This document shows, piece by piece, positions 2,994-13,500 of a stretch of 20,839 nt of DNA. This DNA is from a virus: IMG/VR virus record IMGVR_UViG_3300032242_001865, positions 1 through 20,839 of that record; one strand, given 5' to 3'. The number at the start of each line of letters is the position of its first letter. The first letter of the stretch is position 1. The notes under the pieces are model-generated. The model had not been told where the DNA came from. It saw nothing but the letters and a program-made list of their open reading frames with translations, and ran no database searches. Made by a program: the position numbers and the translations under genes.

Positions 2994-3263
2994 TTATTTA
3001 TCAGCTTTGTTATCTAACTTTTCATAAAGTTTATCTAATAAAGCTTCAATCCGATCAAATCTGGCTTCCATATCATCTTTGCGAACATATTTAGTTGGCA
3101 ATTCAACTTCAATCTTTTGAATATCATTGGTAACTGATTTAACATCGGTCTTTAATTCTTTAACTGCATCAAATATTTGCTTTGAAAACCATCCAAATAT
3201 TGCCGACAGCAAGCTACAAACACCAAAGATTACATTAAAAATTACTTGCCATTCCACATTCAT
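2994..3263 (-). CDS. Single-pass membrane protein with coiled coil (possible holin/lysis accessory)
   Basis: An 89-residue protein. Residues about 7-26 (VIFNVIFGVCSLLSAIFGWF) form one hydrophobic membrane segment close to the N-terminus. The rest is amphipathic helix: heptad-like repeats from 30 to 54 (FDAVKELKTDVKSVTNDI) and again from 66 to 86 (EARFDRIEALLDKLYEKL), separated by a Pro kink and a basic KYVRKDD. This plan (N-terminal anchor, C-terminal coiled coil, charged tail) is common for small phage proteins annotated as XhlA-like or holin-associated and for spanin-like components, but here the anchor is N-terminal and no lipobox is seen. No endolysin gene lies nearby in the window. A role in lysis or membrane targeting is possible; I cannot decide. 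Confidence 0.6.
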   Translation of the reverse strand: MNVEWQVIFNVIFGVCSLLSAIFGWFSKQIFDAVKELKTDVKSVTNDIQKIEVELPTKYVRKDDMEARFDRIEALLDKLYEKLDNKADK

Positions 3264-3465: not shown

Positions 3466-3894
3466 CTATATGAATTTAACAACTTCTTCAGGTAAAACAA
3501 ATTTTGTCGCATCATATTCTGTAAAGTCCCACCATAAGAATTGATTTGTTGCTAAATTTTTTCTATCCAACAATAAGTTGGTGTTCTCTGGATGCCCAAA
3601 GATATTCGGATCGGAAACCGACCATAGAACTATACCATATTTTTTGCGATCCCAACAAAAATGCTGAAAAAAAGAATCGCAACTTATCCATGTTGTGCAT
3701 TGATCTACAAGCGATCCCAACTCATCAAGAGATAAATTTTTTTTAAAGTCAGGCACTAATTGTTCTTCACCTTCGACACCTACTTGAATGATTGGTTCTT
3801 CTATTAAGCTTATGAGTTCTTTCCAATAAGGATAATTTTTTGGGTTTCTTTTTTTGTTTATTAATGGTTTTGAATAAGGTGAAATAATAATCAT
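3466..3894 (-). CDS. GT9/heptosyltransferase-like C-terminal Rossmann domain as a separate ORF
   Basis: A 142-residue protein that looks like only the second, nucleotide-sugar-binding half of a GT-B glycosyltransferase. It begins with a short strand and loop (IIISPYSKP), continues with a helix (NYPYWKELISLI, 20-31) and strand (IIQVGVEGE, 35-43), then LSLDELGSLVDQCTTWI (54-70), CDSFFQHFCW (72-81) and YGIVLWSVSDPNIFGHPEN (86-104). This follows the heptosyltransferase pattern of Leu-x-Glu-Leu helix, D-S-x-x-x-H motif and the Gly/Pro-rich donor loop. The gene starts inside the stop of the GT2-like gene (ATGA, -1 frame). The end of that protein resembles the missing first half, so the two may act together as one split enzyme. 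An alternative is a degraded fragment, although its clean ends argue against that. Confidence 0.7.
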   Translation of the reverse strand: MIIISPYSKPLINKKRNPKNYPYWKELISLIEEPIIQVGVEGEEQLVPDFKKNLSLDELGSLVDQCTTWISCDSFFQHFCWDRKKYGIVLWSVSDPNIFGHPENTNLLLDRKNLATNQFLWWDFTEYDATKFVLPEEVVKFI

Positions 3895-4865
3895 AGATAT
3901 AACTTTCTATAAGCATTTTCTAAACTCCCTGTCCAATTCCAATCAGCCATCTTTTTATAAACATTCCATTGATCTATGCCACCAAATAATGCATAAGCAT
4001 CCGCAATTGGTCGCCCTGGAATAATATCTGGATAGCAAGTAAATACTTCTGCATTTTCAATTTCAGGCAATATATGTTTAAACACAATATGATCGCCCAT
4101 GCCACCAGTTAATACTACAATCTTTTTGTCTTTAAAATTTACAATGTTTTTAAATATATTTTCATCATGCTCAAACATTTCCATTGTTTGATTTGATCTT
4201 ATACCGCCTTCTGGATTTTTAAGATGCCATGTAATAGCATTAGGAATAACTAAAAGCTTATAACCTTTTTGATATAATCCATTTGAAAATAATGTTTCTT
4301 CTCTATGTGCTACTCTTGATAATCCAAGATTGTAATCATGCACACCAGCTCGGTATAAAAATGAACAATAAAGATGCTCAACTTCTTTAGTTTTTTCAAT
4401 TAAACCCCATTGAATGTTAGGTTCAATTTGTATGTTTTCTAATTTGCCTGTGGATTTTGATGCATCATTATTGACAGGCAAAGGTGGAGTAATCACCGAT
4501 CCGCCAACTGCACCTACTTCATCAAAAGCATAATATGAAAGCCGCTCTAATACATTAGGTTCTGGTATTGCATCATCATCTACTCGCCAAACCCAATCAT
4601 AACCCATGGTGTTAGCCATCTGATGAATATGATGTTGTCCTTTCTTTTCAGCATATTTCCATTCCCAATCAATACCTTTGACATTAAGAATGTGAAATAA
4701 ATGTTGATAAAGAAAATGATTCCTTAAATCTTGTGGTTCATCATTATCATCAAAAATAACCAATTTATCTGGCTTTCTTGTTTGATAAATAATTGATTCA
4801 ATCACCATAGGCAAAGTAGAAAAATACCTGCCTTTAGTAGCAATTGAACATAATATCTTATCCAT
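3891..4865 (-). CDS. GT2-family glycosyltransferase with C-terminal half GT-B domain
   Basis: A 324-residue protein. Residues 1-240 form a GT-A glycosyltransferase: the N-terminal nucleotide-binding strand MDKILCSIATKGRYFSTL, a conserved VIFDDNDEP (36-44), the metal-binding RVDDDAIPEP (94-103, DxD type) and the acceptor-side region REETLFSNGLYQKGYKLL followed by WHLKNPEGG (188-221). It is expected to transfer a sugar from a nucleotide donor. Residues about 247-324 are an extra part: KKIVVLTGGMGDHIVFKHILPEI followed by FTCYPDIIPG, which resembles the first Rossmann strand and Gly-rich loop (G-G-x-G-D) of GT9 enzymes. The rest of that fold appears in the next ORF, which overlaps by four bases. 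An AAAGGATA site lies a few bases before the ATG. The gene follows the giant fibre gene by 15 bases, suggesting a role in modifying virion or host surface glycans. Confidence 0.85.
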   Translation of the reverse strand: MDKILCSIATKGRYFSTLPMVIESIIYQTRKPDKLVIFDDNDEPQDLRNHFLYQHLFHILNVKGIDWEWKYAEKKGQHHIHQMANTMGYDWVWRVDDDAIPEPNVLERLSYYAFDEVGAVGGSVITPPLPVNNDASKSTGKLENIQIEPNIQWGLIEKTKEVEHLYCSFLYRAGVHDYNLGLSRVAHREETLFSNGLYQKGYKLLVIPNAITWHLKNPEGGIRSNQTMEMFEHDENIFKNIVNFKDKKIVVLTGGMGDHIVFKHILPEIENAEVFTCYPDIIPGRPIADAYALFGGIDQWNVYKKMADWNWTGSLENAYRKLYL

Positions 4866-4880
4866 ATCTTATCCTTTATA

Positions 4881-7800
4881 TTAAATTGGATATACTAAAT
4901 CTACCCTTTGTCCTACAGATAATGCAGTTCCAAATACTACTGCTGTCCCTGATGTTACAGTTACATCAACACCATTAATCATTTTAACACCTTGCAAGAA
5001 TACTTCAATTTTGCCTGATGTATAAGTTGCAGATGTTGTAAATGATGTTTGAGCTGCTGTTGAAGTAAATTGATCATAAATCATTTTAGTTACAATACTT
5101 GATGCAGAGCCACTGTAGCCTGAATAGCCAGAATAACCAGATACACCAGAACCACTATAGCCAGAATATCCGCTAATACCAGAACCAGAGTAACCTGATG
5201 TTCCAGAATAACCAGAATATCCAGAAATTCCTGATTGACCAGCAATATCAAAAGTCCATGATGCAAAAGTTCCTGATCCACCAACTAAATCAACATTCAC
5301 TGTTAATGTTGTTGTTGAATAAGCTGTGATCTGACCTTCCATAAAGTTAGTAGTATTATTAATCCTAACTCTCATCCCAACTACATAAGCATTAGTGCCT
5401 TGAGCTTGATTAACTGTGAATGCTTTAGAGCCTGTGCCAATTAAGAATGAAGTTGTGGAAGTTAATCCTGCATAACCTAAACCTGAATATCCGCTATAAC
5501 CAGATATGCCACTTGCACCGCTAAACCCAGATACACCACTACCAGAATATCCGCTATAACCACTTATACCAGAGCCACTGTAACCGCTATATCCACTTGT
5601 GCCTGATAAACCATTTGTTCCATTAGTGCCTGAATAACCGCTTATTCCAGAAAAACCACTATAACCAGATATTCCAGAAAAACCAGAATAACCGCTTACA
5701 CCACTACCACTATAACCAGAATATCCAGAAATACCAGAACCGCTATAACCACTATAACCGCTTATGCCAGAGCCACTATAGCCAGAGTAACCGCTTATTC
5801 CAGAGTAGCCGCTTATTCCAGAGTAGCCAGAGTATCCTGATATGCCACTTCCTGAATAGCCTGAATATCCTGAAGTTCCGCTTGCGCCAGTTGCGCCATT
5901 TGTGCCACTATAACCAGAATAGCCACTAATGCCTGATGCGCCATTTTGTCCACTTATTCCACTCCATCCTGAAATTCCACTAAATCCACTATAACCACTA
6001 ATGCCAGAATAACCTGAATAACCAGATACTCCACTACCACTGTAACCTGAATAACCACTTACTCCAGAACCGCTATATCCACTAAAACCTGATTTACCAC
6101 TAAATCCTGATATTCCAGAATAACCGCTATAACCACTAAATCCTGATATTGCATAAGTGACTTGTGTTGCAGTAAAAATAACTGATGGTGTTTCAGGATA
6201 AGTTGAATTTCCAGCTATTGTTTCTAAATAAACATTTGAATTAGCAGTATCCCAATATAATTCAATATAATCATTTGCATTTAAATTTAATACAAAATTA
6301 ACAGTTAATATATTGGATGAATATGAACTTCCAGCTTTATCAGGCACATCATAATGAGAATTAGTATCCGCAATATTTGTGCCATTCTTTTTTAGCCAAA
6401 CTTGAGTTGCGCCTAATGAATTACTATGGTTAGTAAATTGAATAGAAAATGTAAGACTATAAGTTCCTGTGTCACTAAATACAATTCTTGATGAAGGTGA
6501 TCCAATAGCCACATCTCTTGAATTTGAATCATAACTATTAAAAGTTATTGCAGTTGGTGTGTTAGCTGTTGTTGTTTGAGTTGTAGTATCCCAAAATGAA
6601 CCCCAAGAAGCTATTGTTCCACCAAGACCTTGTGCGCCAGAAAAACCAGAAATACCACTATAGCCTGATATACCACTAAATCCGCTATAACCTGAAATTC
6701 CAGAGTATCCAGAATAACCTGATACACCGCTTCCGCTATAACCACTATAACCTGATATACCGCTAAAGCCAGAATAGCCACTTATACCTGAAAAACCTGA
6801 TGCGCCATTAGTTCCAGAAATACCACTATATCCACTAATTCCTGAATAACCAGATGTGCCACTAAAGCCTGATATACCGCTAAAGCCACTATAGCCGCTT
6901 ACACCACTTCCAGAATAACCACTGTAACCAGATGTGCCTGAATATCCACTAATTCCAGAGTAACCTGAAAATCCACTTATGCCAGAATAACCGCTTGCAC
7001 CATTTTGACCGCTAAATCCACTTATTCCAGAATAACCTGAAAAGCCACTTGTGCCATTAGTTCCATTTTGACCACTATAACCAGAGTAACCGCTTGTGCC
7101 TGATGCACCTGAAAATCCGCTTATACCTGAATAACCTGATGTGCCATTTTGTCCAGAATAACCAGAATAACCACTTGTGCCATTAGAACCATTAATACCA
7201 GAATAACCAGAATAACCAGAGTAACCAGAGTAACCAGAAGCACCATCAAAGCCACTATAACCTGAATAACCAGATTCACCTTGAGCGCCATCTTGTCCAC
7301 TATAACCACTATATCCTGAAGTTCCTTGTTCGCCACTATAACCACTAAATCCTGATATACCGCTTTGTCCTGGTGGTCCAACAATAGGTCCTACATTATT
7401 CCAAGTAGCTCCATCCCATACATATAAGTCGCCATCGGATGTAACAATATAAGCATCATTAGGAAGATTTCCAATTAAAGGTAAATCTGCTGGAGTTGCA
7501 ACTGTGCCTTTAATATTAATTGAAGTTCCTTGCTGACCAGAGTAACCAGAGAATCCACTATAACCAGAAATACCTGAATCACCACTCCATCCGCTAATAC
7601 CACTATCACCACTAAATCCACTAATACCTGAATCACCACTGTATCCACTTATTCCTGAATAGCCACTATAGCCAGATATTCCACTGTCACCTGAAAATCC
7701 ACTAATACCTGATTCGCCTGAAAAACCACTTATTCCACTATCACCGCTATAACCGCTATAGCCTGAAAAACCACTGTCACCTTGCGGAACAAATAAAGTC

Positions 7801-8678
7801 CAAAGATAAGGAATATAAGGCGGTTCAGGTTCACCTGGTGGAACAATTCCATTTGCAATATAAGTATTGTTATTATAAGTAACAATGTCATTTAAATTAT
7901 ATCCAGCAAAAAGATTCCATGCGCCTTTAAAATATAATCCAATTCCTGAATATCCGCTATAACCTGATATACCAGAATCACCGCTAAATCCGCTAATACC
8001 AGAATCGCCTGACCATCCACTTATGCCAGAATCGCCACTGTAACCTGATATGCCACTAAAGCCACTATATCCGCTTATACCTGAATCGCCAGAAAAACCG
8101 CTTATGCCACTATCACCTGAAAAACCTGATATGCCACTATCGCCAGAATAACCACTAATTCCACTATCACCGCTATATCCTGACCAACCTGAAATTCCGC
8201 TACCAGAATATCCACTTATGCCGCTATCGCCGCTAAAGCCAGATAAACCGCTATCACCGCTAAACCCAGAAATACCTGAATAACCACTATAACCGCTATA
8301 GCCAGAATAACCGCTATCACCTTGTATTGATTCGCCAGAGTAACCAGAATAGCCAGAGTAACCACTTACACCTGATCCTGAAAATCCAGATATGCCTGAA
8401 AATCCAGAATAACCTGATTGACCGCTAAAACCAGAATAGCCTGAAAATCCTGAATAGCTTGAATAACCTGATATTCCAGAGTAGCCAGAAAAACCTGATA
8501 TACCTGAAAATCCAGAATAACCACTGTATCCAGAATATCCGCTAGTTCCTGAATAACCGCGAATACCTTGATCAATAGTGACTATAGTTTGAGTTGTGGG
8601 AGTAACTTGAACATCAATTGTGGATGTAGGATTTACAGATACATCAACTGTATTTATAGGCGATAAAGTGATGTCCAT
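4881..8678 (-). CDS. Giant Gly-X-Ser collagen-like tail fibre/adhesin
   Basis: A 1265-residue protein, the largest gene in the window. An N-terminal 40-residue beta-rich segment (SPINTVDVSVNPTSTIDVQV) probably attaches it to the tail. The rest is five tracts of Gly-X-Ser triplets (X mostly Tyr, Phe, Ile, Asp, Trp) at about 41-245, 300-382, 437-680, 843-1066 and 1149-1190, separated by folded modules. The modules are a small WNLFAGYNLNDIVTYNNNTY domain resembling chitin/carbohydrate-binding modules (246-299), a DLYVWDGATWNNVG module common in tail fibres (383-436), a jelly-roll-like domain of C1q/TNF type (680-843), a beta module (1066-1149) and a C-terminal beta domain (about 1191-1265). Unlike true collagen it has almost no Pro. 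Synonymous codons vary between repeats, so the pattern is kept at protein level. The start follows the upstream stop by two bases with a weak ribosome site, suggesting coupling. Receptor binding is inferred. Confidence 0.85.
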   Translation of the reverse strand: MDITLSPINTVDVSVNPTSTIDVQVTPTTQTIVTIDQGIRGYSGTSGYSGYSGYSGFSGISGFSGYSGISGYSSYSGFSGYSGFSGQSGYSGFSGISGFSGSGVSGYSGYSGYSGESIQGDSGYSGYSGYSGYSGISGFSGDSGLSGFSGDSGISGYSGSGISGWSGYSGDSGISGYSGDSGISGFSGDSGISGFSGDSGISGYSGFSGISGYSGDSGISGWSGDSGISGFSGDSGISGYSGYSGIGLYFKGAWNLFAGYNLNDIVTYNNNTYIANGIVPPGEPEPPYIPYLWTLFVPQGDSGFSGYSGYSGDSGISGFSGESGISGFSGDSGISGYSGYSGISGYSGDSGISGFSGDSGISGWSGDSGISGYSGFSGYSGQQGTSINIKGTVATPADLPLIGNLPNDAYIVTSDGDLYVWDGATWNNVGPIVGPPGQSGISGFSGYSGEQGTSGYSGYSGQDGAQGESGYSGYSGFDGASGYSGYSGYSGYSGINGSNGTSGYSGYSGQNGTSGYSGISGFSGASGTSGYSGYSGQNGTNGTSGFSGYSGISGFSGQNGASGYSGISGFSGYSGISGYSGTSGYSGYSGSGVSGYSGFSGISGFSGTSGYSGISGYSGISGTNGASGFSGISGYSGFSGISGYSGYSGSGVSGYSGYSGISGYSGFSGISGYSGISGFSGAQGLGGTIASWGSFWDTTTQTTTANTPTAITFNSYDSNSRDVAIGSPSSRIVFSDTGTYSLTFSIQFTNHSNSLGATQVWLKKNGTNIADTNSHYDVPDKAGSSYSSNILTVNFVLNLNANDYIELYWDTANSNVYLETIAGNSTYPETPSVIFTATQVTYAISGFSGYSGYSGISGFSGKSGFSGYSGSGVSGYSGYSGSGVSGYSGYSGISGYSGFSGISGWSGISGQNGASGISGYSGYSGTNGATGASGTSGYSGYSGSGISGYSGYSGISGYSGISGYSGYSGSGISGYSGYSGSGISGYSGYSGSGVSGYSGFSGISGYSGFSGISGYSGTNGTNGLSGTSGYSGYSGSGISGYSGYSGSGVSGFSGASGISGYSGYSGLGYAGLTSTTSFLIGTGSKAFTVNQAQGTNAYVVGMRVRINNTTNFMEGQITAYSTTTLTVNVDLVGGSGTFASWTFDIAGQSGISGYSGYSGTSGYSGSGISGYSGYSGSGVSGYSGYSGYSGSASSIVTKMIYDQFTSTAAQTSFTTSATYTSGKIEVFLQGVKMINGVDVTVTSGTAVVFGTALSVGQRVDLVYPI
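5109..8558 (-). repeat. Nine-base/three-residue Gly-X-Ser repeat tracts
   Basis: Long tandem arrays of a nine-base unit encoding Gly-X-Ser fill 7944-8558, 7533-7781, 6639-7370, 5481-6152 and 5109-5234, all in frame. Individual units differ in synonymous codons, so DNA identity between units is moderate. In the first and second tracts Asp occurs regularly (GDSGISG); in the fourth, GSGISG and GSGVSG dominate; the third also contains Asn-Gly and Thr-Ser variants (QNGTSG, NGTSG). Confidence 0.9.
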
Positions 8679-8680
8679 GA

Positions 8681-9160
8681 TTAATTAACTACACCATCAG
8701 AGCGCACTAAAAAGAGTAAGAATATGATTTGATCTTGAGCTGGTGTATCACCAGTTGCAGAAAATGAAATTTTAATGCGACCAGAAAAGCCTACACAGTT
8801 TACAGCATTAATATCAAGTTGTGGATCGGATGCAATGACATCCCATGCTGATTCATCAATTACTAAAGTAAAGTGACCTAATAAATCATCTCGATTAGTA
8901 ATAGTAAGAGTAACTGGATCAGGAGTTGGTGTGTAATCAGCTATGTCAAATGTAAGACCATAGCGAGAATCATGGATATTAGTTACTGATCTTCTAATGA
9001 TTTGTGCATCAATAGTAGCATCAGTTAAATCGACTGGAATCCCATCAGTATTAAAATTAAGATTCCAAAATGTTTTTTGATTATAAACAAGTTCGCCAGC
9101 AATGATTTCATTATCAAAGCCAGAAACTTGGCGCAAAGTGTTTTTATTAAAGATAGCCAT
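8681..9160 (-). CDS. Tail fibre-associated/baseplate-type protein
   Basis: A 159-residue beta-rich protein. The N-terminal part reads FNTDGIPVDLTDATIDAQIIRR (36-57), a layout (G-x-P-x-D-L-T ... A-x-[IV]) seen in the N-terminal domains of upper baseplate and fibre-attachment proteins of many phages. The middle carries VTLTITNRDDLLGHFTLVID, and the C-terminal part GFSGRIKISFSATGDTPAQDQIIFLLFLV is again beta sheet. There is no signal peptide. A GAGG ribosome site stands about six bases before the ATG. It lies immediately before the giant Gly-X-Ser fibre, two bases apart, so it probably forms the collar or adaptor that links that fibre to the tail tip (inference). It is the first gene after the only sizeable intergenic gap, so it may be the first cistron of its own transcript. 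Confidence 0.6.
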   Translation of the reverse strand: MAIFNKNTLRQVSGFDNEIIAGELVYNQKTFWNLNFNTDGIPVDLTDATIDAQIIRRSVTNIHDSRYGLTFDIADYTPTPDPVTLTITNRDDLLGHFTLVIDESAWDVIASDPQLDINAVNCVGFSGRIKISFSATGDTPAQDQIIFLLFLVRSDGVVN

Positions 9161-9288
9161 GTTTTCCTCACTAGGTAAATTGTCGAGCCTATATGCTTAC
9201 AGAACTCGGATGGTATTATCTTATTATAACTTATTAATATTTGCCTTCAGCGAATACATTTACAAAATATGTTTAGGAACAACTGTTA
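9161..9288 (-). promoter_or_regulatory. Intergenic region with possible - strand promoter
   Basis: This is the longest gene-free stretch (128 bases) and is very A/T rich. On the - strand a perfect TATAAT lies at 9228-9223, about 60 bases before the ATG at 9160; the matching -35 position reads GCTGAA and is poor. An alternative is TTGTAA with a 17-base spacer to AAATAT. A weak CGAG/CTCG inverted repeat with a 17-base loop lies nearer the gene. No strong terminator hairpin is seen. The promoter call is tentative, because A/T-rich phage DNA yields such matches by chance. Confidence 0.3.
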
Positions 9289-9579
9289 TCATATTGTAGT
9301 GACACTATTAGTTAAAGGTTCATTTGCAATAGGTAATGGTGGTTTAGGAGCATTTGTAGTTACAACAGAACCATTCCAAGTAAACCCAATTTGACCTTGA
9401 CCCATTACTTCTGTTAAAACATAATCTGTTCTATCTGTGTTTGGTTGCCAAATTATTGATGGAGTAGTATCTAGAGCAATAGCTATAGAATCAATTGGTG
9501 ATTGCCAACCTGACCCACCATCCCATACAACAATATTTGTTACTACATTATTTTCAATAATTAAATAATTTTGATTCAT
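9289..9579 (-). CDS. Small fibre-associated (tail fibre chaperone-like) protein
   Basis: A 96-residue protein beginning NYLIIENNVVTNIVVWDGGSGW and containing IGFTWNGSVVTTNAPKPPLP near the end. The plan Y-x-V-I-x-x-x-x-V-x-N-[IV]-V-x-W-D-G followed by a C-terminal I-G-x-x-[WY]-N/D-G-x-x-F/V is frequent in small phage proteins encoded next to tail fibre genes, where they are taken to be fibre tip or fibre assembly proteins. A good AAAGGATA ribosome site stands before the ATG. The gene follows the Gly-rich fibre gene by 11 bases, so the two are probably co-translated. The Pro-rich tail (APKPPLP) may be a flexible linker. The exact role is not known. Confidence 0.6.
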   Translation of the reverse strand: MNQNYLIIENNVVTNIVVWDGGSGWQSPIDSIAIALDTTPSIIWQPNTDRTDYVLTEVMGQGQIGFTWNGSVVTTNAPKPPLPIANEPLTNSVTTI

Positions 9580-9590
9580 TTTATATCCTT

Positions 9591-10583
9591 TTAATATTCA
9601 ATATATACACAGCCACCAATACCACCTGAAGCATTAAATCCGGTTGGGTCATCAGCATAACTTCCAGAACCAGGAGCATAAACACTTGTTGTTGTCCATG
9701 CTACAGCAGCACCTGAAAAAACAGCAGTAAGTCTATAATTATTTCCACCAAACCAATAAGAACCTTGACCATATATATTAAAAGAAGAAGTTGTTCCTCT
9801 TATTAAAGTTCCTGTAGTTACTGTAGAAGTTCCACAAGCACCTCCAGCACCATAAATTCCACTTGTGCCAATACCACCTCCAGAAGATACATTAATTCCA
9901 GTTCCTACAACAGAGGATGCTCCACCATTACCAGCAGCTCCATTATTATTAACTCCTGCTCCACCAGCTCCTACAGTAACAGTTAAAGTTCCTCCTGATG
10001 TAAGTCCTGTAGCAACAGCCCATGTAGCAGCCCCAGCACCAGCAGTGCAAGCATTATTTCCATTATTATTAGTTCCTCCACCACCCCCTATAATTAAAAC
10101 TTTAATCATAGTTACACCTGTTGGAACAGTCCAAGATGCTGAAGATGTAAACATTACACCGCTCATACCAGCTACACCACCACCTGATGCTGCTGCCCAA
10201 GTTGGTGCTGCTGCACCTGCTGATGTTAAAACATAACCTGATGTTCCAGCCGCAGTATAAGCTTGAGCTGTTCCTGTGCCATAAACAACCCCACCATTAG
10301 TTGGAGTTGCTGTTGAATTTGTGCCACCACCAGCAATAGGTAAAACACCAAAAGCTGGAGCAGATGCGCCAGCAGATACTAAAGCTTGACCAGTTGTTCC
10401 TGCCGCAGTTGTAGCTAATGCAGTTCCAGTTCCATAAACAGCACCGCCAGCAGTTGGAGTGGCGGTAGAGTTAGTGCCACCATTAGCAATTGGCAATGTT
10501 CCTGTAACAGCAGCGGTCAAAGATATTTGACCTGATGTGTTTACATTATTTGCTAATTGAGATAGATTAAAAGCATTTGACAT
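9591..10583 (-). CDS. Tail fibre with tandem repeats and Gly-rich tip domain
   Basis: A 330-residue structural protein. After about 28 residues it has two head-to-tail copies of a 51-residue unit starting LPIA-GGTNSTATPT (30-80 and 81-131), a G-G-T-N-S/T type shaft motif well known from tail fibres. A strand-rich region (MFTSSASWTVPTGVTMIKVLI, about 147-167) leads into a Gly-rich domain that fills the C-terminal half, with GGGGGTNNNGNN, GAGGAGVNNNGAAGNGG and similar runs, ending in GGIGGCVYIEY. Gly-rich tips of this kind (as in T2-type gp38 adhesins and other phage receptor-binding proteins) are hypervariable and determine host range. A GGGG ribosome site precedes the ATG. It follows the gpJ-like gene by nine bases. 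Receptor binding is likely; the receptor is unknown. Confidence 0.8.
   Translation of the reverse strand: MSNAFNLSQLANNVNTSGQISLTAAVTGTLPIANGGTNSTATPTAGGAVYGTGTALATTAAGTTGQALVSAGASAPAFGVLPIAGGGTNSTATPTNGGVVYGTGTAQAYTAAGTSGYVLTSAGAAAPTWAAASGGGVAGMSGVMFTSSASWTVPTGVTMIKVLIIGGGGGTNNNGNNACTAGAGAATWAVATGLTSGGTLTVTVGAGGAGVNNNGAAGNGGASSVVGTGINVSSGGGIGTSGIYGAGGACGTSTVTTGTLIRGTTSSFNIYGQGSYWFGGNNYRLTAVFSGAAVAWTTTSVYAPGSGSYADDPTGFNASGGIGGCVYIEY
10191..10496 (-). repeat. Two tandem copies of a 51-residue (153-base) unit
   Basis: Within the Gly-rich fibre gene two adjacent in-frame units share GGTNSTATPT, VYGTGTA and TAAGT-G blocks and the SAG-[SA]AP ending. The copies differ by scattered substitutions, so the duplication is not recent. 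Such duplications lengthen a fibre shaft. Confidence 0.8.
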
Positions 10584-10592
10584 TTTTTCCCC

Positions 10593-13500
10593 TTATGCCG
10601 CTCCATATCGAGCGAATGTTTGTTGTCCCATAATTTCAGTATTTATAGCTGGTGTTACAGTTAAAGTGTAGCTTGTGGTTGTTGAAGTATAATCAGTTCC
10701 GCTTACTAACAATGCGCCATTCATATAAACATTTAAAGCATTAACAATTGAATTAAATGGATAACCAGCTTGTCCAATAACTGTATATGCTATCATATTT
10801 ACCATGCTTCCAGTAGGTGTTGTTAGATTATTTCCAGTAAATTGTATTATATCTAAATCCCCACTAAAAATGTTAGGAATTGATGAATATGTATTGCTAG
10901 TTAAATTATAGTCATAAGCTGTTATAGCTGCACCATTAATAAATGGAAGTTCAAATCCAGTATCAAATGACCATAAAGTAGGTGTATAACTAGAAGCATT
11001 AGTTAAATTAGCTGTATATCGACTAAATACTCTATAACTTGATGATGCAGCTCTATAAAAATACATTCTTGATCCAGCAGAAACTCCAGTGACAGGTGTG
11101 CTAAATGTAATTTGAGCGGTAGAATAATTAACACCTGTGACTGTATATTGAGTTGGTGTGCCAGTATTGCTAAATGTAATCTTATTGCCTACATCAATTA
11201 AGTCCCATGGCATATTGGCATTATTCCAAGTCACCACATTAGAAGCTACACTAGAAACTGACATACTCATTAAATCATAATAAGTGCTAGTTGATATAGC
11301 TCTCATAGATATAATAGTTATGTTATCGCCTAAAGTAGCACCTGTGGCTAAAGTAACACTTCCTGATGCATCTGTATAATCAGATTCTTTTAATAAAACA
11401 CCATTTTCAAACACTAAACATTGACCAACAATATAGCTTGAATCTCTTGTTACACTAAATACAGTTTGACTTGATGTTGCAGTAAATTGAGCAATAGTCA
11501 TAAAGAATTGATCTGCTGAAGCAAATCCTACCACTCGACCATAAACATCAATAGTTAAAGTAGCGGCTGATCCTGTAAATGTAGTAGGACCACCAAAATC
11601 TAGGAATTTTTGAAGTGCTGCTACTACTTGACCATCGGCTGTATTGACAATAGAAATTTCACCTGTGCTTACAGTGGTTGTGCCTGTGCCAATTAACTGA
11701 CCAGTTCTTTGATCTAAATCAATAACATTAGTCCCATCAGGTAAAGCTGACCAAATACTTGGATCATATAAAGATGATGTAGTTGGAACAAAAGAAGCTG
11801 TGCCAGCAGCATAAGCAGCAAGGTCTGTAGCAAAGCTAAATTTGCGACCAGTTCTATTTGAAAAAGCTACAAATTTATTAGAACTAAATGTAGGATCAGC
11901 TAAATACCATGTATAGTTTGCAGGATTAGTTGATGCGCTAGATGAGCTTGAATTATAAAGTCCATAATACAATCTATTTCTAGGGTTTAAATTAAAGTTA
12001 GATGTGCCTGTAATATTATCGGCATAAGCCACTGATAAATATTTTTCAGTAAATTGATATGTAGTTGGTCGCCATTTAAATACTGATGAAGGCGGACTAT
12101 ATGAGCTTTTAGCAATACTATTAACCATGCGGCTAAAGAAATACCAATCGCCTGAAGGGATATTAGTTAATTGATTATTTGTAATTAAATAATTAATGGT
12201 ATATGGATTTCCATTAGGCAATACTGGAGTTGTGCCAGCAAATATTAATTGGCTTGATGTTGGAGTTGCATAAGCTGAATACCAAATTTCAGCATATTGA
12301 GTAATACCAGAGCTTGCTGTTTCTATATCAACTGTAAAATATGGATTTGTTGCAGAAGGATATGAAGCTGAAACAATCGGTGCATATAATGTGCCAAAGT
12401 TTGTAGGCGATCCAATACCAGTATTTGGAGCTGGAGTAAATTCAGTAATTGATGCATCATTATAAACCGCAGGATTAAATTCCATTAAAGTTAATCCAGC
12501 AGTTACTTGACCAGTGTCACTAAACTTTTCAATAACTTTAGAAATTCTAAATAATTTAGCATCCCAACCATAATTAGCATTAGTTAAAGTTACAATATCG
12601 CCAGCTTCTAATTGAAGCCCTACATAATTAATTTCTAATGTAACTTGTAAATCTTCTCTGGCTGCTTTTAAAAGTCTATTAGCAAGATATTGAACTTGCA
12701 CATTGTTATTTGACAAATAAAGATTTAATGATTGTTTATTAACTGGTTCATTTGGAAATAAAAGTGTGGGATCAATTGTTTGTAGATCAAATGTAACTGA
12801 TGCAAATGAATTTTTTTCAGAGCCATCAGGATATTTACATTCAATAGTATTAAATGAATTAGATAAATCAATTGGACTTACATTAATAGCGCCAATGGTA
12901 TTGCTATTATTAATATCCATAGCAACTGTATAAGTAGGTTTTTGAACAATAACACCCCAAAGACCAACTATTTCATTATATTTAACTAAACAATCACAGC
13001 AATCCGCCATAGATTGAATGTTTTGCATAATCTTTTGAACAGGATCAAGCACACCATTAAATTCAAATCTTTTTTGTGTCGCTGATCCGCCACCATAAGG
13101 TGTATAAGTAATCACTTCATTTGAATATGTATTAAGCGCTGTTAAAGATGTTGTATCAATTTGACTTAAAGGTAAAGCTGCGCCATATCGAGTAGAGCTA
13201 AAATAATCTAAAAAGCAATCGCCTGGAGCTTTTCTTGAATTGGTTACTTGAAATCTTGTTTGATTTAAACCAGTTAAATTTTTGCTTGAATTATATTTAA
13301 CATGAATAATTGCAAAAGCAGAATTACTCATTAATTTAGAACTATCCCATTGATAAACAAGATTAGAAGCTTGTAATACTGTAATAGCGCTTGTAGAAGT
13401 ATTTGCTGGCTGATTAGAACCATTCTTATAAAGATATATATCCATGTAACCAGTAATATCTTCAGTAACACCTGTTGATTCATCAAGTAATCCAGTCACC

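Follow-up and report, generated by a model that had tools for sequence, protein, structure and literature searches.

In the natural examples of divided GT-B glycosyltransferases, Alg14/Alg13 of eukaryotes and EpsE/EpsF of bacteria and archaea, the acceptor (N) and donor (C) halves are carried by different chains, between which the active site lies; that of Alg14/Alg13 is formed in trans by the two chains (PMC8993221), and separate GT-B domains obtained by engineering can auto-assemble into active dimers (PMC10937113). Both natural pairs belong to the GT1/GT28 (MurG-like) lineage, from which natural split GT-B enzymes are known. Searches of the literature for a split GT9 enzyme or a split phage glycosyltransferase found nothing relevant, nor did the literature searched yield a split GT-B enzyme in which another glycosyltransferase bears one of the halves. 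The GT9-type enzymes WaaC (HepI), WaaF (HepII) and TibC are single chains of approximately 320–400 residues with a full N-terminal domain and, in those compared here, no GT2 fusion. Pelagiphages HTVC111P and HTVC112P also encode a putative glycosyl transferase on one chain of 293 residues (gp53 and gp49, respectively), adjoining a tail-fibre gene.

The locus described here, in which such halves would likewise be divided between two genes, lies in a window of 20,839 nucleotides, the whole stretch of IMG/VR virus record IMGVR_UViG_3300032242_001865 that was analysed. Open reading frame (ORF) A, at positions 3891–4865 of the minus strand, encodes 324 residues comprising a GT2 domain and a 78-residue tail, and ORF B, at 3466–3894 of the minus strand, encodes 142 residues making up a GT9-type C-terminal domain. 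The two share the four bases ATGA (3891–3894, minus strand), which are read from the sequence as the stop of A and the start of B, with B in the −1 frame, exactly as given in a preliminary description of this DNA. Directly upstream of A, at a spacing of 15 nt in the window, is a gene for a collagen-like repeat fibre of 1265 residues with 219 SGxSG motifs (4881–8678, minus strand). The closest relative of the window in the phage collection is Methylophilaceae phage P19250A (71% identity, tail-tip protein compared), whose products P19250A_0025 and P19250A_0026, annotated as hypothetical, are direct orthologues of A and B (66% and 76% identity, respectively) with the same 4-nt overlap; unlike the window, P19250A has a methyltransferase gene before A. 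No PHROGs family was found for A or B. The two proteins are probably co-translated chains that together make up one GT9-like GT-B active site in trans, the tail of A being its acceptor side. Of the options put forward in the preliminary description, this two-chain enzyme is the best-fitting reading.

Protein B is the complete C-terminal (nucleotide-sugar-binding, donor) domain of a GT9, heptosyltransferase-type GT-B enzyme. PF01075 was matched by 66 of 67 relatives of B (best 4.5e-9), the window’s own B scoring 11.9 bits, under the Pfam cut-off of 22, and NCBIfam heptosyltransferase models match most of the relatives. The predicted structure of B (pLDDT 96.7, pTM 0.90) aligns end to end, over residues 1–142, with residues 182–339 of HepII (1psw; Z 14.2, rmsd 2.1, 124 residues), and the same residues align with 180–316 of WaaC (Z 13.9); overall, the C-terminal domains of HepII, TibC and WaaC gave Z scores of 13.6–14.2 and rmsd values of 2.0–2.6 over 120–135 aligned residues. 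The downstream ORF therefore begins where the second Rossmann half begins, as had been suggested from the sequence, and the split falls at the GT9 domain boundary. In a profile alignment, Lys19 (3838–3840), Asp73 (3676–3678) and His78 of B correspond to Lys192, Asp261 and His266 of WaaC, and all three are invariant among 67 sequences. In WaaC/HepI, the catalytic base of which is Asp13, the alanine mutants D13A, D261A and K192A lose 4688-, 2027- and 926-fold activity, respectively (PMC5713226). B thus corresponds to the C-terminal domains of WaaC/HepI, WaaF/HepII and TibC both in its fold and in its key residues. In this respect it appears to differ from Alg14/Alg13 and EpsE/EpsF: the top sequence and fold matches of B, among those listed, are GT9, and there is no MurG or Alg13 entry among the 50 structural matches listed, a result still compatible with a MurG-like lineage.

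Residues 1–246 of A (4128–4865, minus strand) form a GT2 glycosyltransferase domain of the GT-A fold, recognized both by PF00535 (27 bits, compared with a cut-off of 23.3) and by structure; all 61 relatives of A matched PF00535 with E below 1. The segments DDD (residues 96–98, about 4572–4580), REET (188–191) and WH (213–214) are invariant, the first of these being the acidic metal motif expected for a GT-A fold, and invariant residues of catalytic type are present on both A and B. The predicted structure of A, tail included, has a pLDDT of 91.5 and a pTM of 0.88 and is nearest to pp-GalNAc-transferases, RmlT, TarP and SpsA, with Z scores of 17–18 to GT2 and pp-GalNAcT structures. Many alignments to GT2-only structures end at residue 246, and some VIA alignments to pp-GalNAc-transferases cover residues 1–324.

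The tail, residues 247–324 of A (3894–4127, minus strand), may be read as a shortened GT9-type N-terminal half, from its conservation, its model and a weak profile match. It carries an invariant GxGD motif within GGMGD (residues 254–258), in which Gly255, Gly257 and Asp258 (4092–4094) are unchanged among 64 sequences; one family alignment was built without the phage-collection locus L001. The tail is modelled with high confidence as a β-strand (248–252), the GGMGD segment, an α-helix and a second β-strand (272–276), followed by three helices. The GD motif of the tail would correspond to that of the single-chain GT9 enzymes, and in the predicted structure Asp258 is placed like Asp13 of WaaC, which we take to lie within the GD motif directly after the first strand. 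The tail comprises 78 residues compared with approximately 180 in the usual GT9 N-terminal domain. Its profile gave no significant GT9 match against NCBIfam and PDB sequences, and did not rise above shuffles against 19 cellular GT9 proteins, several of the ORF picks in this set being poor. In an analysis of covariation with B, the tail held 55% of the top 100 pairs, as against 27% expected and 34–50% in unpaired controls. Assignment of the tail as the N-terminal (acceptor) half of a GT9-type GT-B enzyme is moderately supported and, since the direct profile searches yielded no GT9 match, not proven. The proposed resemblance of the GGMGD segment to the first half of a GT9 domain is thus plausible from the motif, the predicted β-α-β unit and a weak colinear match, with the shortness of the tail and its want of a significant direct match counting against it; the suggested GT9 profile searches bore out B through its relatives, and not the tail.

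The colinear match is to the pelagiphage protein. Its C-terminal half shows a clear relationship to B (hhalign probability 96.8, E 2e-10); the best match of the tail of A is to residues 6–27 of the same protein, the expected place, at a weak hhalign P of 0.012. In HTVC111P and HTVC112P, by contrast with the window, both halves are on the one chain and no GT2 domain is attached. A distant relative of the pair, at 8712–11103 of locus L479 (28% and 36% identity), consists of a 616-residue A-like and a 222-residue B-like ORF that overlap extensively in different frames; the tail is longer here and more GT9-like in look, reads RICLATGGVGDNILFKSALGDILAANPD, and in an alignment led by L479 matched the N terminus of the single-chain protein at P 0.001. 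These colinear matches suggest that the order of tail then B mirrors that of a one-chain enzyme. Compared with Alg14/Alg13 and EpsE/EpsF, the putative phage N-terminal half is very short and is joined to a distinct GT2 enzyme.

The two-frame layout is widely conserved among related freshwater phages. When IMG/VR was scanned with A or B, the confirmed relatives numbered 179, 323, 437 and 149, of which the 80 best per scan were kept; 306 loci were fetched, and 95 near-duplicates were taken out. Among the fetched loci, A is directly followed by B in 199 distinct cases, in none of which are the two in one open frame, a split that goes far beyond what chance would give. The 4-nt overlap, ATGA or GTGA, is retained in 192 of the 199, the exceptions being five loci with overlaps of 14 or 26 nt and B in the other frame, one short gap and one odd start. 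In nine loci, intact genes lie between A and B, both halves of which are still present and intact: L278 and L307 have a complete GT2 gene there, L285, L289, L294 and L298–L300 a complete methyltransferase gene, and L288 complete genes of both kinds. Neither A without B nor B without A was found where the contig was long enough; the four contigs with apparently only A and the one with apparently only B, from the scan for the fibre repeat, each break off inside the gene or immediately next to it. Values of dN/dS of 0.05–0.26 for the tail of A and for B indicate purifying selection.

This conservation bears on the idea, raised in the preliminary description, that a single-base sequencing or assembly error had broken a natural GT2–GT9 fusion. 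A single-chain GT9-like relative does occur in pelagiphages, which would speak for such an error; the suggested search for fused relatives yielded this joined GT9-like chain. Two frames conserved in about 199 distinct viral loci, whole genes between the halves in nine, the identical split in the complete genome of the isolate P19250A and the selection acting on both ORFs exclude an error, to which we attach practically no probability; as was argued at the outset, the position of the split is unlike that of a random frameshift. A fused A–B frame was not found among the 306 fetched loci, and since taking the best 80 matches per scan favours close relatives, more distant ones may include a fused form.

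A single polypeptide could also arise from the two ORFs if ribosomes shifted frame at the ATGA junction or read through the stop there, and the strong conservation of so short an overlap might be seen in this light. No slippery heptamer (X-XXY-YYZ) occurs within 120 nt of the stop codon of A, confirming the earlier statement that a classical one is lacking, and the codon before this stop varies among loci (CTA, TTA, AAA, GTA, ATA or CTG). A ribosome-binding-site-like hexamer, AGAAAG, lies inside A (3903–3908, minus strand), 8 nt ahead of the B start codon (ATG); a Shine–Dalgarno-like core is present in 152 of 192 loci, and Arg320 is encoded by AGR in 132 of 162 loci, as opposed to 810 of 2055 among the remaining Arg codons of A, in sequences that are related to one another. 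The hexamer and the AGR bias suggest that B is initiated independently or by coupling. Together with the nine loci in which whole genes separate the halves, and the five in which B is in another frame, these features make a frameshifted or read-through fusion very unlikely, and A and B are probably translated separately and kept in step by translational coupling.

In the two-chain reading, A and B would be coupled proteins that associate into one enzyme complex, the contact between them, the role of the tail as N-terminal half, the catalysis and the substrate being parts of the model that we infer. A would have its own GT2 (GT-A) active site and, in its short C-terminal module, part of a second, GT9-like site, to which the tail would contribute Asp258, the proposed catalytic residue, together with the acceptor side; B would supply donor-nucleotide binding, with Lys19 and Asp73. 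With the candidate catalytic base on A and the donor domain on B, the second active site would, like that of Alg14/Alg13, form only when A meets B, and with the GT2 site of A in addition, the complex could add two sugars. Alternatively, B might be a stand-alone GT9-like protein, acting as a homo-oligomer or with some other partner, the tail a purely structural appendage of the GT2 enzyme and the two genes mere neighbours in a glycosylation operon. The shortness of the tail and its want of a significant GT9 match would agree with this, as would the confident folding of A alone with its tail, the VIA alignments that run across the whole of A and the occurrence of other genes between A and B. We nevertheless regard it as unlikely: B is a donor domain only, with neither an acceptor half nor a GD catalytic base, A and B always co-occur, the invariant GxGD sits in a predicted β-α-β unit of the tail, and in the single-chain relative the two parts follow one another in this order too.

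The substrate of the pair may be sought in its gene neighbourhood. Of 186 A–B loci, 140 have an SGxSG-repeat ORF in the flanking sequence that was fetched, compared with none of 80 loci related to the single-chain phage gene and none of 32 cellular GT9 loci. A reciprocal scan with the repeat DNA pattern alone recovered both A and B in at least 54 loci (54 of the 119 among the matches listed). The association of pair and fibre is therefore two-way and strong, in genomes that are related and hence not independent. Many loci also have a methyltransferase or GT2–methyltransferase gene upstream of A, overlapping A by 4 nt. This neighbourhood of SGxSG fibre, methyltransferase and GT2 genes suggests a fibre-modification cassette, in which the SGxSG fibre may be the acceptor protein of the A–B pair; the strength of the linkage makes glycosylation of the virion fibre a testable guess. 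The two glycosyl transfers would then belong to a virion- or surface-modification cassette and would be directed most likely onto the adjacent fibre. The fullest form of this proposal, a bifunctional phage machine consisting of a GT2 enzyme with a GT9 acceptor half in cis and a separate donor gene, building a two-sugar glycan on the phage’s own SGxSG fibre, is put forward only tentatively.

The pair might instead modify host lipopolysaccharide or capsule, for example to block superinfection, a rival concerning the substrate alone that is compatible with the two-chain mechanism. GT9 is classically the family of heptosyltransferases of the lipopolysaccharide core, and the cassettes contain GT2 and FkbM-type methyltransferase genes. 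The two-way association with the fibre gene weighs against a host-surface target, as does the presence of protein O-glycosyltransferases among the nearest GT2 folds, although folds do not fix substrate; such a target is a genuine possibility that we do not favour.

If the two-chain enzyme is as proposed, natural splitting of GT-B enzymes would extend beyond the MurG/Alg13–Alg14/EpsE–EpsF lineage, small donor domains with genes of their own would be available from nature, such an enzyme might manage with a shortened acceptor half, and two common, unannotated freshwater-phage proteins could be named. Were the fibre the target, a common repetitive phage fibre would be tied to a dedicated glycosylation cassette, which could be tested on cultured P19250A virions.

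Several of the loci show further features. In L523 (6190–7755), an A homologue begins with a methyltransferase joined to it in frame, whereas elsewhere the two are mostly separate genes with a 4-nt overlap, indicating that the cassette undergoes fusion and fission. In L035, an in-frame TAG at residue 50 (about 3187–3189) interrupts an otherwise intact A homologue, which may be due to an error, to decay of this copy or to recoding of TAG. Four matches, L162–L165, came from cellular assemblies, one of them filed as Nitrosotalea, and may be phage contigs that were sorted into cellular genome bins. In L278 (4505–7792) and L288 (4478–8426), B is followed by another repetitive fibre-like protein, with repeats of the NTTGSNNTAIG type. 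In P19250A itself (L001), the product P19250A_0023 (KX815270.1, 21390–24995), carries the annotation of a tail length tape-measure protein but is apparently the SGxSG-repeat fibre protein, so that this annotation looks doubtful.
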